Below, piece after piece: positions 31,867-35,017 of a DNA stretch of 64,000 bases. The position numbers were made by a program, and so were the translations under genes. This stretch comes from Ulvibacterium marinum (GTDB taxonomy: Bacteria > Bacteroidota > Bacteroidia > Flavobacteriales > Flavobacteriaceae): assembly GCF_003626755.1 (NCBI RefSeq), contig NZ_RBCJ01000006.1, positions 310,001-374,000 of the forward strand. Reading direction: 5' to 3'. Each line of letters opens with the position of its first letter. The first letter of the stretch is position 1. The notes under the pieces are model-generated. The model did not search any database. It saw only the letters and a list, made by a program, of their open reading frames with translations, and had not been told where the DNA came from.

Positions 31867-31913
31867 TAATATAATTCTTATATTTCCTTTTATTAATTTA
31901 AAGGACTTTTGTG

Positions 31914-32951
31914 ATGCTTTTGAGTATTGTCATTCCTGTTCACAATGCATCTTCCTATTTAAAAAGGTGTTTAGATTCTATAATTCATCAAAGCTATCGG
32001 CAAATAGAGATAATCCTAGTGGATGATTTTTCTACAGATGATTCTTTAGCTATGATTCGCGAATATGAGGAAAAGGATAATCGTGTCAAGGTGTTTTGTA
32101 ACCCAAGAAATTGTCGTGCTGGATATACCCGTAACAAGGGTTTGAGAGAAGCTACAGGGGCATATGTTTGGTTCGTTGATGCCGATGACTGGATACCCCA
32201 AGGAGCCATATCCGGATTGGTCCGGCATTTGAACAATTCCCCGAAGGATGTGGATCTATTGGTCATGGGGTATACGGACAACTTTGGAGATGCTTATGTG
32301 AAATTTGAGAAAAAAACACGACTCCCTCGAAATTTAGGGAGAAACGAGCAGGCCATGCTCAATTTTCTAAACCTTACCAAAGGTTTTTTTAGTTACCCCT
32401 TCCTGTACCTATATTCACAGCAGTTGCTCCTACGGCACCAAATACTATTTCCGGAGAATGTGTATTATGAGGACATTTCTTTTGTCGCAATGGCCGTTCA
32501 TCATGCAAAAAACATCGAGATTTACTCACAGTCTTCCTATAATTATAATTGTGAGCCGCACAACTCCATAACAAGGACCTATTCCAAGGAAAAAATTAGG
32601 GATATTATTTCAGCCTACGATAGGTTGTATGAATTTTTGGCTTCCGAGGGACTTATTGAAAAATATAATGATCAATACCTAATGCGTTTTCTTTTACATG
32701 GTCTGGGGGCTTGTTTTCAAATGTATTATCAGCTCGATAAAGAGGATCAAAAGGACAATGCACTTAAGGAATTGTTACAATCTTATTTGGTTTCGGATAT
32801 ACTTTCTGACGAAAGCATAATTTATGTTTCTCGGTTAATTGAGGCAATCGATGTTAATGAGGCACTTACAAAGGCCTATCATAGATTAAAACTTGACTTT
32901 CTGTGTGATACAAAGAAAAATTGGGTCTATAGTCAGGTAAGTCTCAAGTAA
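31914..32951 (+). CDS. Family-2 glycosyltransferase
   Basis: 345 residues from the ATG at 31914 (a GTG three bases earlier would add one Met). GT-A fold: SIVIPVHNASSYL (4-16), LVDDFSTDD (35-43), the metal-binding DADDW (89-93) and the acceptor-side YYEDISF (184-190). No membrane helix. It is not near the capsule genes; instead it is convergent with a Cys-rich GG-leader peptide gene 156 bases away. It could glycosylate a surface polymer or, by analogy with GT2 enzymes of glycocin clusters (for example SunS), a peptide. The second is inference from context only. Exact -7 promoter element at 31859. Confidence 0.88.
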   Translation: MLLSIVIPVHNASSYLKRCLDSIIHQSYRQIEIILVDDFSTDDSLAMIREYEEKDNRVKVFCNPRNCRAGYTRNKGLREATGAYVWFVDADDWIPQGAISGLVRHLNNSPKDVDLLVMGYTDNFGDAYVKFEKKTRLPRNLGRNEQAMLNFLNLTKGFFSYPFLYLYSQQLLLRHQILFPENVYYEDISFVAMAVHHAKNIEIYSQSSYNYNCEPHNSITRTYSKEKIRDIISAYDRLYEFLASEGLIEKYNDQYLMRFLLHGLGACFQMYYQLDKEDQKDNALKELLQSYLVSDILSDESIIYVSRLIEAIDVNEALTKAYHRLKLDFLCDTKKNWVYSQVSLK

Positions 32952-33106: not shown

Positions 33107-33304
33107 TTAATAAGGACCTTGGCAACAAGTACTACAAAAAGTATTTGGAGAACCAAGAAAAACCTGTTGTCTACATCCTGTGGAACAAGTAGGGTCAACA
33201 GAGCAGCTACCTACCGGTGTACCGCCTACAACAGTTTTCAATTCTTCGGATTGAAGTAGATTGTCAACTTTTAGATCCAACCCCCTAAAACTTAAATTTT
33301 TCAT
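33107..33304 (-). CDS. Cys-rich secreted peptide precursor with GG leader
   Basis: 65 residues. The leader (1-28) ends LLQSEELKTVVGG, the classic double-glycine leader pattern of bacteriocin-like and natural-product precursors cut by C39 peptidases. The core (29-65) is short, uncharged except for one Asp and one Arg, rich in Ser, Thr, Gly and Pro, and has six cysteines (34, 40, 44, 57, 60, 61). This composition fits a peptide held by up to three disulfides. Upstream on the same strand, 120 bases away, is a VKOR-thioredoxin fusion able to make such bonds. Function (antimicrobial, signalling, metal-binding) is not known. Ends in a strong terminator. Confident as a real gene because start, leader, core and terminator all agree. 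Confidence 0.82.
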   Translation of the reverse strand: MKNLSFRGLDLKVDNLLQSEELKTVVGGTPVGSCSVDPTCSTGCRQQVFLGSPNTFCSTCCQGPY

Positions 33305-33392
33305 TCGGTAAAACTTTAAAATTTATATTTGTCTTGAACAGTTAAGGACACTCAAGGTTTATGTCCATTCTTCGCGAAAGAATATTGTTCTT

Positions 33393-33420
33393 GGCCCAAA
33401 GTTCTTCTTTGGGCCTTTTT
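33393..33420 (+). terminator. Hairpin with T-run between the VKOR fusion gene and the peptide gene
   Basis: GGCCCAAAG (33393-33401) and CTTTGGGCC (33407-33415) with a TTCTT loop; a T-run follows on the plus strand. It begins 10 bases after the stop of the minus-strand fusion gene. On that strand an A-run precedes the stem but no T-run follows, so it may only partly terminate or may protect the mRNA end. Confidence 0.65.
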
Positions 33421-33424
33421 CTTT

Positions 33425-35017
33425 TTATCCCAGGATTTCCTTTAAATCTTTTGCATTATAGTATTCCATAGGCAATTCATAACCATTTATGAAAAGGGTA
33501 GGTGTATGGGCGATTTTCTCTTTTTTGCACCAACCGTACATAGCCTCTATTTTCGCGTCCTGTTGGGCAAGCTCTCCGTTCAATGGATATTTAAGGGCGA
33601 AGGCATTATAGTCCTTTTTTGGAGCACTGTACCAATTATCCAAGGCCTGTTGAGTTCTAAGTTCGTTGCCTTGATCATTTATGGCCAATAAATGCCTTAC
33701 GGGTTTTGCCCTATTGTCCACATGGTTTGTGGATGCCGTAAACAATATCTGTAAATTAATTTTACCCCTGTTTACCAATTCCTCCAGATGGGGATGGGCG
33801 GTGGCACAAGGTCCACAATAGGGATTACATACTTTAATGATGTCATATTCGGCCGTATTTCTTTTTAATGAAATTCCCAATCCATTGGGAGCTGTTTCTA
33901 TTTTCCGAGAAGCAGCAAGTAAACTTGATAGAACCTTGGGATTATTCTTGATTTTTTTGAACCCCCTTTTGTACAAATTCGTTTCCCTTTCCTTATCCAA
34001 TAGGGGCTTAACAAATTTCCAGAGCAATATAGGTACAATGAGTAGGATGCCAAGTACAGGCAAAGTTTGTAGGACTATAGGATTTTCATAGAAACCGGCA
34101 GCATGTCCCAAAATGATCTCTGTGATAAGAATAACCTGTATACCTATACAAAATTTACACCACTGCCCTATAATCATTCCTTGGTAATATGCCGATATCA
34201 ATAGTATGGGAAACGTTGAAAAACTAAAAAAAGTCAAAATGGCCAAGGACGACATCGAAAATTCCTGTATTGGAAGATACAGGAAAGTGGCGAAAAAATA
34301 GGAGAGGCCCAATACACCTAGGCTCAGGGATCCATTAAAAAGTCGGGCATGTTTTGAGTTCAATACCGCATGGCAATCCACCTTTTTACCTCCCGAACAA
34401 AGAGCTTGCAGTTTTGGGTTGTACTGGTCAACCTCAAACCATAATAACGCCGCCCCAACAAGCAATCCACCAACTTTAAGCAAGGTATAGACCAATGTGT
34501 AAACAATGTTTTCCGGTTTCGCTGTTATATCGGAATTGAAAAGGGTATTCGAGACCCAAATTATGAGAAGTAGAAGGAGCAATGCGCTAAGGGATTGTGC
34601 TAGTCTAATCGATGATAGTTTTTTATCTATTCCAGGCTCGCTTATAGTTTCGGTCTTATCTACCAACAAGCATATCCCGGTCCATTTTTTCAAAAAGCTT
34701 TCCTTTGATTCGTGCTTTAGCGTATTTGAATCATCATAAAAAGAAACGGAATCCTCCATACAGCGGTTCAATACCCAGAAAACCGGGCTCTCCTCCTTTT
34801 TAACCTGTACAATACAGGGTAGGGGAAGTTCCGGTAACCGGGTCTTATCTATCTTAGCGGACAAATTCTTCAGACTATACGTGTTTAATGCATCGGATAC
34901 GGCCAATAGACTGGTATGATCAGGATGGGAAAGTATGGTATCCTCTATATGGGACTTGGTATTTCTAACCTGTAGTAAGTCCAGAATTTTGCGGGTAACG
35001 AATACTGTGTTGTTCAT
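33425..35017 (-). CDS. C39-like (inactive) + VKOR + DsbA-like thioredoxin fusion, peptide disulfide maturase candidate
   Basis: 530 residues. Residues 1-120 resemble a C39 peptidase domain (LDLLQVRNTKSHIEDTILSHPDHTSLLAVSDAL; LPCIVQVKKEESPVFWVLN) but lack the N-terminal catalytic Cys, and the His position (FWVL) is altered, so it should bind rather than cut a GG leader. Residues 140-340 form a VKOR domain with five or more helices, the loop pair Cys207/Cys215 and the redox motif CKFC (287-290). Residues 380-530 are a DsbA-like thioredoxin domain with CNPYCGPC (397-404) and cis-Pro at TPT (505-507). It would form disulfides in periplasmic peptides, passing electrons to quinone. It neighbours a six-Cys GG-leader peptide. 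Such fusions are known in Bacteroidota peptide clusters, but I know of no defined product. Confidence 0.85.
   Translation of the reverse strand: MNNTVFVTRKILDLLQVRNTKSHIEDTILSHPDHTSLLAVSDALNTYSLKNLSAKIDKTRLPELPLPCIVQVKKEESPVFWVLNRCMEDSVSFYDDSNTLKHESKESFLKKWTGICLLVDKTETISEPGIDKKLSSIRLAQSLSALLLLLLIIWVSNTLFNSDITAKPENIVYTLVYTLLKVGGLLVGAALLWFEVDQYNPKLQALCSGGKKVDCHAVLNSKHARLFNGSLSLGVLGLSYFFATFLYLPIQEFSMSSLAILTFFSFSTFPILLISAYYQGMIIGQWCKFCIGIQVILITEIILGHAAGFYENPIVLQTLPVLGILLIVPILLWKFVKPLLDKERETNLYKRGFKKIKNNPKVLSSLLAASRKIETAPNGLGISLKRNTAEYDIIKVCNPYCGPCATAHPHLEELVNRGKINLQILFTASTNHVDNRAKPVRHLLAINDQGNELRTQQALDNWYSAPKKDYNAFALKYPLNGELAQQDAKIEAMYGWCKKEKIAHTPTLFINGYELPMEYYNAKDLKEILG

Follow-up and report, generated by a model that had tools for sequence, protein, structure and literature searches.

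A C39-like/VKOR/thioredoxin fusion predicted to act as a leader-guided disulfide synthase for double-glycine leader peptides in Bacteroidota

We analysed a stretch of 64,000 nucleotides from Ulvibacterium marinum (contig NZ_RBCJ01000006.1, positions 310,001 to 374,000; hereafter the window), in which a small Cys-rich precursor peptide with a double-glycine (GG) leader lies next to the gene of a C39-like/VKOR/thioredoxin fusion protein, both on the reverse strand (-). The precursor is encoded by an open reading frame (ORF) of 65 aa at 33107..33304. Its 28-aa leader, MKNLSFRGLDLKVDNLLQSEELKTVVGG (33221..33304), ends in VVGG and is followed by a 37-aa core (33110..33220) that holds six Cys. The fusion, defined by ORF, Pfam and profile evidence, has 530 aa (33425..35017), and the precursor ORF lies 120 bp downstream of it on the same strand. 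A sequence-only reading of this DNA had described the same precursor and the same fusion, with Cys 207/215 and 287/290 and CGPC at 401-404, and all of these features were recovered where it had placed them. It had further proposed that the fusion binds the leader through its C39-like domain and oxidises the core to at most three disulfides. Recurrent adjacency of the two genes, even Cys numbers, invariant redox Cys, a C39 fold without its nucleophile and hydrophobic leader residues at -4, -7 and -12 all support this proposal by comparison, leader binding and the disulfides themselves being putative.

Pfam Peptidase_C39 matched residues 15-123 of the fusion (E 5e-10), starting only at profile position 25, and the C39-like domain was placed at residues 1-122 (34652..35017) from Pfam, hhalign, an AlphaFold2 (AF2) model and Foldseek. 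An extra transmembrane segment follows at about residues 142-160 (34538..34594; averaged hydropathy), then a VKOR domain with both Cys pairs at residues 176-302 (34112..34492; Pfam VKOR, E 4e-12, and conservation). The thioredoxin/DsbA-like domain occupies residues 389-515 (33473..33853; Pfam, conservation and Foldseek), with CGPC at 33806-33817 and T505-P506; here Pfam Thioredoxin_4 gave E 6e-4 and 20.6 bits, just under its curated cut-off of 23.2. C207, C215, C287, C290, C401, C404 and P506 were invariant in 110/110 fusions of the survey described below. The loop Cys pair and CxxC of the VKOR domain, together with the thioredoxin CxxC and cis-Pro, are the features of a quinone-linked thiol oxidase, and the fusion is predicted to be such an enzyme. 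No NCBIfam model covered the fusion over its whole length, and the source genome (G000) has three VKOR matches, all of which also match the fusion profile. Q279 (window numbering) does not vary among the fusions, 84% of which have Lys at position 284, directly ahead of the VKOR WCxxC, where the window protein has Gly; Q279, position 284 and W286 are possible functional residues of this VKOR type. The fusion was also seen several times as two ORFs, with the break close to the extra helix that separates the C39-like part from VKOR (L279 6620-8211, L285 4241-5786, and the profile rows of G575:C13, G590:C1 and G631:C1), which represent either genuine gene fission or damaged genes.

The columns of the C39 site (Gln, Asp-Cys-Gly, His and Asp) were each 100% conserved in the C39 domains of the 67 ABC transporters encoded nearby. 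The C39-like profile of the fusions aligned to these ABC C39 domains only after the nucleophile segment (hhalign, probability 98.8). No conserved Cys was found in the C39-like domains of the fusions, and a Cys occurred within the first 12 residues in only 12/110. A protease role for this domain was therefore rejected, the catalytic residues being missing. An AF2 model built on seven sequences, usable for the C39-like domain only, gave block values of the predicted local distance difference test (pLDDT) of 72-89 over residues 1-120 of the window protein. Its domain-sized Foldseek matches were the ComA peptidase 5xe8, the LahT-leader complex 6mpz and the C39-like domain 3zua, with TM-scores (TMt) of 0.72-0.76, the value of 0.76 applying to both 5xe8 and 6mpz. 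Two kinds of Foldseek match were set aside for their root-mean-square deviations, namely the top rows, which were full-length PCAT1 chains (near 28), and the VKOR-like match 6wvb (20). These results support a C39 fold that lacks the protease nucleophile and that probably serves to bind leaders.

In LahT, leader residues -4, -7 and -12 lie in a hydrophobic groove, and position -7 requires a non-charged, normally hydrophobic residue (PMC6363468, in the part of the text available). The window leader carries Val at -4, Leu at -7 and Leu at -12 ahead of its GG end, and its Glu at -8 equals the ComA consensus quoted in that part of the same paper. Among 115 leaders, which were chosen for a GG or GA end, positions -4 and -12 were hydrophobic in all and -7 in 48%. 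The split at -7 between Gln (60 leaders) and Leu/Met (54) suggests two recognition types.

A fusion profile built from nine fusions matched 55/397 genomes of the family and 42/395 genomes of the phylum (the two samples overlap); three candidates were scored per genome, so that fusions per genome are lower bounds. The survey sample (the window, nine loci identified earlier and 100 neighbourhoods fetched from the profile matches) held 113 fusions at 107 loci, reduced to 110 distinct fusions by removing identical sequences. Fusions matching 420 profile positions or fewer were excluded, and fragments were left out, as were the partial row of G631:C1 and the near-full-length rows of G153:C1, G277:C6, G490:C77, G685:C89 and C213, G606:C19, G560:C7, G704:C30, G656:C45 and G647:C57. 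Leaders were sought with a hidden Markov model (HMM) from 31 seeds, run on 12,995 short ORFs with a threshold of 7 bits, at which it gave 198 matches against 2 for reversed decoys; at 8 bits, 180 matches and no decoy remained. A leader ORF lay within 3 kb of 95/110 fusions; at least two core Cys were present in such an ORF for 92/110 fusions and at least four for 90/110. For 69/110 fusions an ORF with at least two core Cys lay on the same strand and at most 1 kb downstream, and this same-strand downstream bin of 0-1 kb held 96 of the 204 fusion-match pairs. The 158 deduplicated peptides within 3 kb had core Cys counts of 0 (14 peptides), 1 (1), 2 (3), 3 (1), 4 (34), 5 (7), 6 (76), 7 (5), 8 (15) and 10 (2). 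Even counts therefore outnumbered odd ones by 130 to 14 among the 144 Cys-bearing cores, as paired disulfides predict. As a control, leaders were also sought around C39-ABC genes of genomes that lack the fusion (20 regions, some truncated at contig ends and not drawn from every fusion-less C39 match row), which yielded four leader matches, none with Cys. The pairing of fusion and peptide is beyond chance.

Named relatives had loci of this kind too. The Spirosoma oryzicola locus combines the fusion, a GG peptide, two glycosyltransferases, C39-ABC and HlyD, and that of Aureibacter tunicatorum combines the fusion, two small GG-type Cys-bearing proteins, C39-ABC and HlyD. Emticicia oligotrophica has two fusions, Cys-bearing GG peptides, TlpA-like genes and DUF6734, with no exporter in the stretch examined. 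Among four plasmid-collection records, the leader HMM recovered the peptides of Emticicia and Spirosoma, and those of Aureibacter and Parabacteroides were recognized by eye. Two further features of the neighbourhoods were noticed. At L153, L154, L132 and L157, Cys-free GG-leader ORFs whose tails are rich in Gly/Asn run divergently from the fusion, in tandem in 3/4 of these loci. In 8/107 loci a DUF6734 gene is found no more than about 125 bp from the fusion (for example L011 10463-11350), and one also occurs at Emticicia L286 (4306-5937).

An exporter often accompanies the fusion. A C39-ABC gene cluster lay within 6 kb in 67/107 loci, in 64 of these 67 on the fusion strand, and an HlyD cluster within 6 kb in 62/107, both clusters being identified through Pfam of one representative each. 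At the genome level, a strong C39 peptidase match was found in 54/55 fusion-bearing genomes, the sole exception being G200, and in 16/39 fusion-less genomes (Fisher p 1.4e-10); the latter were names from profile-search listings rather than a random draw, and some are incomplete. The source genome has a single strong C39 peptidase match, C11:238187, which lies on the same contig as the fusion and about 105 kb from it, within a locus that also holds an HlyD gene and four GG-leader ORFs bearing Cys. Export of the window peptide would thus take place in trans.

The membrane topology of the fusion was then assessed from hydropathy and loop charge. Averaged hydropathy gave six membrane segments, one more ahead of VKOR than in canonical VKOR-thioredoxin proteins, and the extra helix was over threshold in 106/110 fusions. 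With it, the C39-like domain, the VKOR active site and the thioredoxin domain would share one side of the membrane. Loop charges of 108 fusions were compared with those of 25 canonical VKORs from the same phylum sample (16 for the last loop). The canonical set came from 30 loci, of which four were left out (L186, L190, L201 and L209; one non-canonical and three fusions or fusion parts), and among the remaining 26 one was unsegmentable, two are near-identical and a few have doubtful starts. The K+R content per residue of loops 1 to 6 was 0.027, 0.108, 0.024, 0.163, 0.030 and 0.235 in the fusions and 0.241, 0.038, 0.182, 0.038, 0.130 and 0.048 in the canonical VKORs, so that the bias is opposite in 6/6 loops. 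The difference between active-side and opposite-side K+R density was positive in 103/108 fusions and 3/25 canonical VKORs. Among 76 representatives below 60% identity, K+R density per residue was higher on the active side in 76/76, and in 75/76 when the active side was restricted to the Cys loop and the TM3-TM4 loop. By the positive-inside rule, these reversed loop charges indicate a cytoplasmic active face. In Parabacteroides distasonis a separate ORF of 170 aa, no stretch of which exceeds the membrane threshold, encodes the C39-like part next to a VKOR-thioredoxin ORF; whether or not these split ORFs are functional, they agree with a cytoplasmic C39-like side. The leader dock, the VKOR active site and the thioredoxin domain are all predicted to face the cytoplasm, and an outward-facing active side is not what the charges indicate. 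The extra helix and the reversed charge pattern had not featured in the sequence-only reading.

The same enzyme and substrate could instead be arranged in the ordinary VKOR topology, with active site, thioredoxin and C39-like domains in the periplasm and oxidation taking place during or after export. We regard this arrangement as unlikely. Beyond the reversal of charge in every loop and in every representative, it would need export of a folded N-terminal domain, and a hydrophobic stretch in the first 40 residues was present in only 4/110 fusions. ABC-HlyD export should moreover bypass the periplasm, with the leader normally removed on the cytoplasmic side. In its favour, oxidation is easier outside the cytoplasm, and characterised bacterial VKORs pair with periplasmic DsbA-type partners (for background, the available text of PMC11208910).

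From the computed architecture, conservation, linkage and charge pattern we infer leader binding, the direction of electron flow, disulfides and the cytoplasmic orientation, and consider it probable that the fusion is an enzyme dedicated to making disulfides in GG-leader peptides, that it is quinone-driven, leader-guided and cytoplasm-facing, and that it acts before export. In such a pathway the protease-dead C39-like domain would keep the precursor bound by its leader, in the cytoplasm, while the thioredoxin domain oxidises the core Cys. The VKOR Cys pairs would re-oxidise the thioredoxin domain and pass the electrons to membrane quinone. Once oxidised, the peptide would be handed to a separate C39-ABC/HlyD exporter that cleaves the leader and secretes the product.

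Homologues of the window peptide were examined with a peptide profile in the 397 family genomes. Five family members, the window peptide included, matched over positions 1-65; this count excludes weaker or partial profile rows, many of which adjoin other fusions. All six Cys were retained in 5/5 members. The leader ends in GS in the G018 member and in GAGG in the G120 member. The ratio of nonsynonymous to synonymous substitution (dN/dS) was 0.06-0.18 in the 7/10 pairwise comparisons that were unsaturated, several of which had a high proportion of synonymous differences (pS). An adjacent fusion was found at three of the five (window, G120 and G377) and was absent from the G217 and G018 loci. 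These two loci weaken the idea of a strict pair and point to action in trans. By score, the window peptide is not a radical SAM (rSAM)-modified, ribosomally synthesised and post-translationally modified peptide (RiPP) of TIGR04149 (16.1 bits against a curated cut-off of 25), and this identity was rejected. At E 0.01 or better, 7/13 peptides of the system match TIGR04149 (best 1e-6), and NCBIfam families with a bacteriocin-like label match 5/13 (NF047798) and 1/13 (the CCPGW family).

A gene for a GT2 glycosyltransferase, identified by Pfam and by comparison of loci as a possible second modifier, lies convergent to the peptide at 31911..32951 (+), and this neighbour was absent from the earlier description. 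A convergent GT2 stands beside the peptide in 5/5 loci (window 31911-32951 (+), L277 8222-9259, L278 8410-9456, L279 8704-9738 and L015 8164-9186), including the two without an adjacent fusion, and SunS was among its 27 PDB matches (E 7e-7). A glycosylated disulfide peptide is therefore a live possibility. The window peptide might even be mainly glycocin-like, with GT2 glycosylating core Ser/Thr or Cys and the fusion as an accessory supplier of disulfides, much as BdbA/BdbB supply disulfides for sublancin. UDPGT-, GT2- or galactosyltransferase-type genes at other loci would fit this, namely L281 (6615-7859), L284 (6131-7438), L280 (9199-10653), L115 (9814-11124), Spirosoma L287 (7599-8936) and Parabacteroides L285 (6808-7497). 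We hold a glycocin-like identity to be doubtful, although it and a disulfide synthase role of the fusion can hold together. GT2 is convergent and outside the operon, and it is closer to polysaccharide/adhesin-type glycosyltransferases than to SunS. At 10/107 fusion loci and 1/20 control loci, the fetched stretch contained a match to the GT2, UDPGT or galactosyltransferase queries at any position, so that glycosyltransferase genes are not clearly enriched across the family at large; 8 further fusion loci had DUF6734. Separately, a TPYC-type peptide family with a UDPGT neighbour was seen among the peptide, exporter or fusion loci.

Several observations weigh against a leader-guided, cytoplasm-facing synthase. 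Across the five loci of the window peptide family, GT2 is at least as tightly tied to the peptide as the fusion is; the two peptide loci without an adjacent fusion lie in genomes that carry fusions elsewhere, and the frame of the fusion next to the G377 peptide is interrupted. Position -7 is Gln in 60/115 leaders, unlike the LahT requirement. Co-variation between leader and C39-like domain, over and above that with the other domains, is weak (73 pairs, partial r 0.11, reached by 22/500 permutations), and the raw leader correlations with the three fusion domains are alike (0.272, 0.262 and 0.255). Charge bias and hydropathy are the whole basis of the topology, in which 5/108 fusions and 3/25 canonical VKORs go the opposite way in the density comparison, two fusions and one canonical VKOR could not be segmented, and the residues just before the extra helix are only mildly basic, K+R exceeding D+E in 71/110. 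Confidence of the AF2 model is low in VKOR and thioredoxin (mean pLDDT 64, and below 50 over much of thioredoxin). The cytoplasm is normally reducing, and a peptide oxidised there would have to be protected or exported quickly. Since the seeds were taken from the neighbourhoods under study, the HMM favours this leader kind; the decoys and the fusion-less control address chance rather than seed bias, and that control is small.

The leader HMM left 15/110 fusions without any GG-leader ORF within 3 kb, and 18/110 without one that has at least two core Cys. Fusions lacking a nearby Cys-rich GG peptide, which had been named beforehand as a sign against the pairing, were thus not cleanly avoided; a looser regular-expression scan recovered a GG ORF for L096 and L103. 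Fusions without a detected peptide, like peptide members without an adjacent fusion, would suit a general oxidative-folding or thiol-repair enzyme whose GG-peptide neighbourhood merely reflects shared placement in variable genome regions. We think this very improbable given the close same-strand downstream placement, the even-Cys parity, the exporter co-occurrence and the built-in C39-type domain, and the 342/397 family genomes without a fusion match are ill-suited to a housekeeping role.

Taken as a whole, there is somewhat better than an even chance that a protease-dead C39 domain has been fused in nature to a VKOR that faces the cytoplasm, and that the resulting protein brings quinone-driven oxidation to leader-held peptides before their export, one conserved enzyme type serving well over 100 divergent Cys-rich cores across Bacteroidota, with glycosylation added at some loci. 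Bacteria normally keep disulfide formation out of their cytoplasm, and a natural leader-aimed membrane enzyme making disulfides on the cytoplasmic side would, if confirmed, be a new type of RiPP maturase. The fusion would then also serve as a marker gene in the search for disulfide-rich peptides throughout Bacteroidota, and possibly as a tool to produce disulfide peptides inside E. coli. The recurring pairs in many related bacteria point to a little-explored source of such peptides. In the open-licence PubMed Central (PMC) literature searched, we found no paper combining the whole words VKOR and C39 and none joining VKOR, bacteriocin and disulfide, which is not proof of absence; within that literature, a VKOR-thioredoxin protein joined to a leader-binding C39 domain and predicted to face inward is not described. 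In the available portion of the main text of a VKOR phylogeny paper (PMC4555120), the terms C39, peptidase, fusion and Bacteroid are all absent.

The nearest described system is that of the bacteroidetocins (class IIf), for which the available text of PMC6671954 reports that deletion of a thiol oxidoreductase attenuates activity and that the enzyme is thought to form disulfides; dedicated disulfide enzymes for bacteriocins are thus already known. As here, these are Bacteroidetes GG-leader peptides with Cys, accompanied by a peptidase-ABC transporter and a thiol oxidoreductase gene, and theirs show redox-dependent gel mobility. By the same account, their leaders have 15-16 aa against 28 aa in the window peptide, and their transporter is in the same region, whereas none adjoins the window locus. 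Compared by description only, their oxidoreductase is a stand-alone protein beside a five-TM protein, and here C39-like, VKOR and thioredoxin domains are in one. Canonical VKOR-thioredoxin fusions have the same VKOR and thioredoxin domains and Cys pairs, to which the present fusion adds an N-terminal C39-like domain and helix together with reversed loop charges. The N-terminal domain shares its fold with LahT, ComA, PCAT1 and the HlyB C39-like domain (CLD), and the window leader matches their pattern, but this domain is joined to a redox enzyme rather than an ABC transporter and no nucleophile was found in it. Glycocins such as sublancin likewise combine disulfide-rich leader peptides, a glycosyltransferase and redox enzymes, whereas here GT2 is convergent and of uncertain function and the redox enzyme is of another type. 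CyDisCo papers name an engineered inverted VKOR or DsbB as the disulfide catalyst in the E. coli cytoplasm (PMC4727284 and PMC5471842, in the parts available, with Hatahet and Ruddock 2013 among the works cited), which makes the proposed chemistry feasible. In both cases a membrane catalyst is turned to the cytoplasm for disulfides; that of CyDisCo is engineered and general, whereas the one described here is apparently natural and leader-guided.

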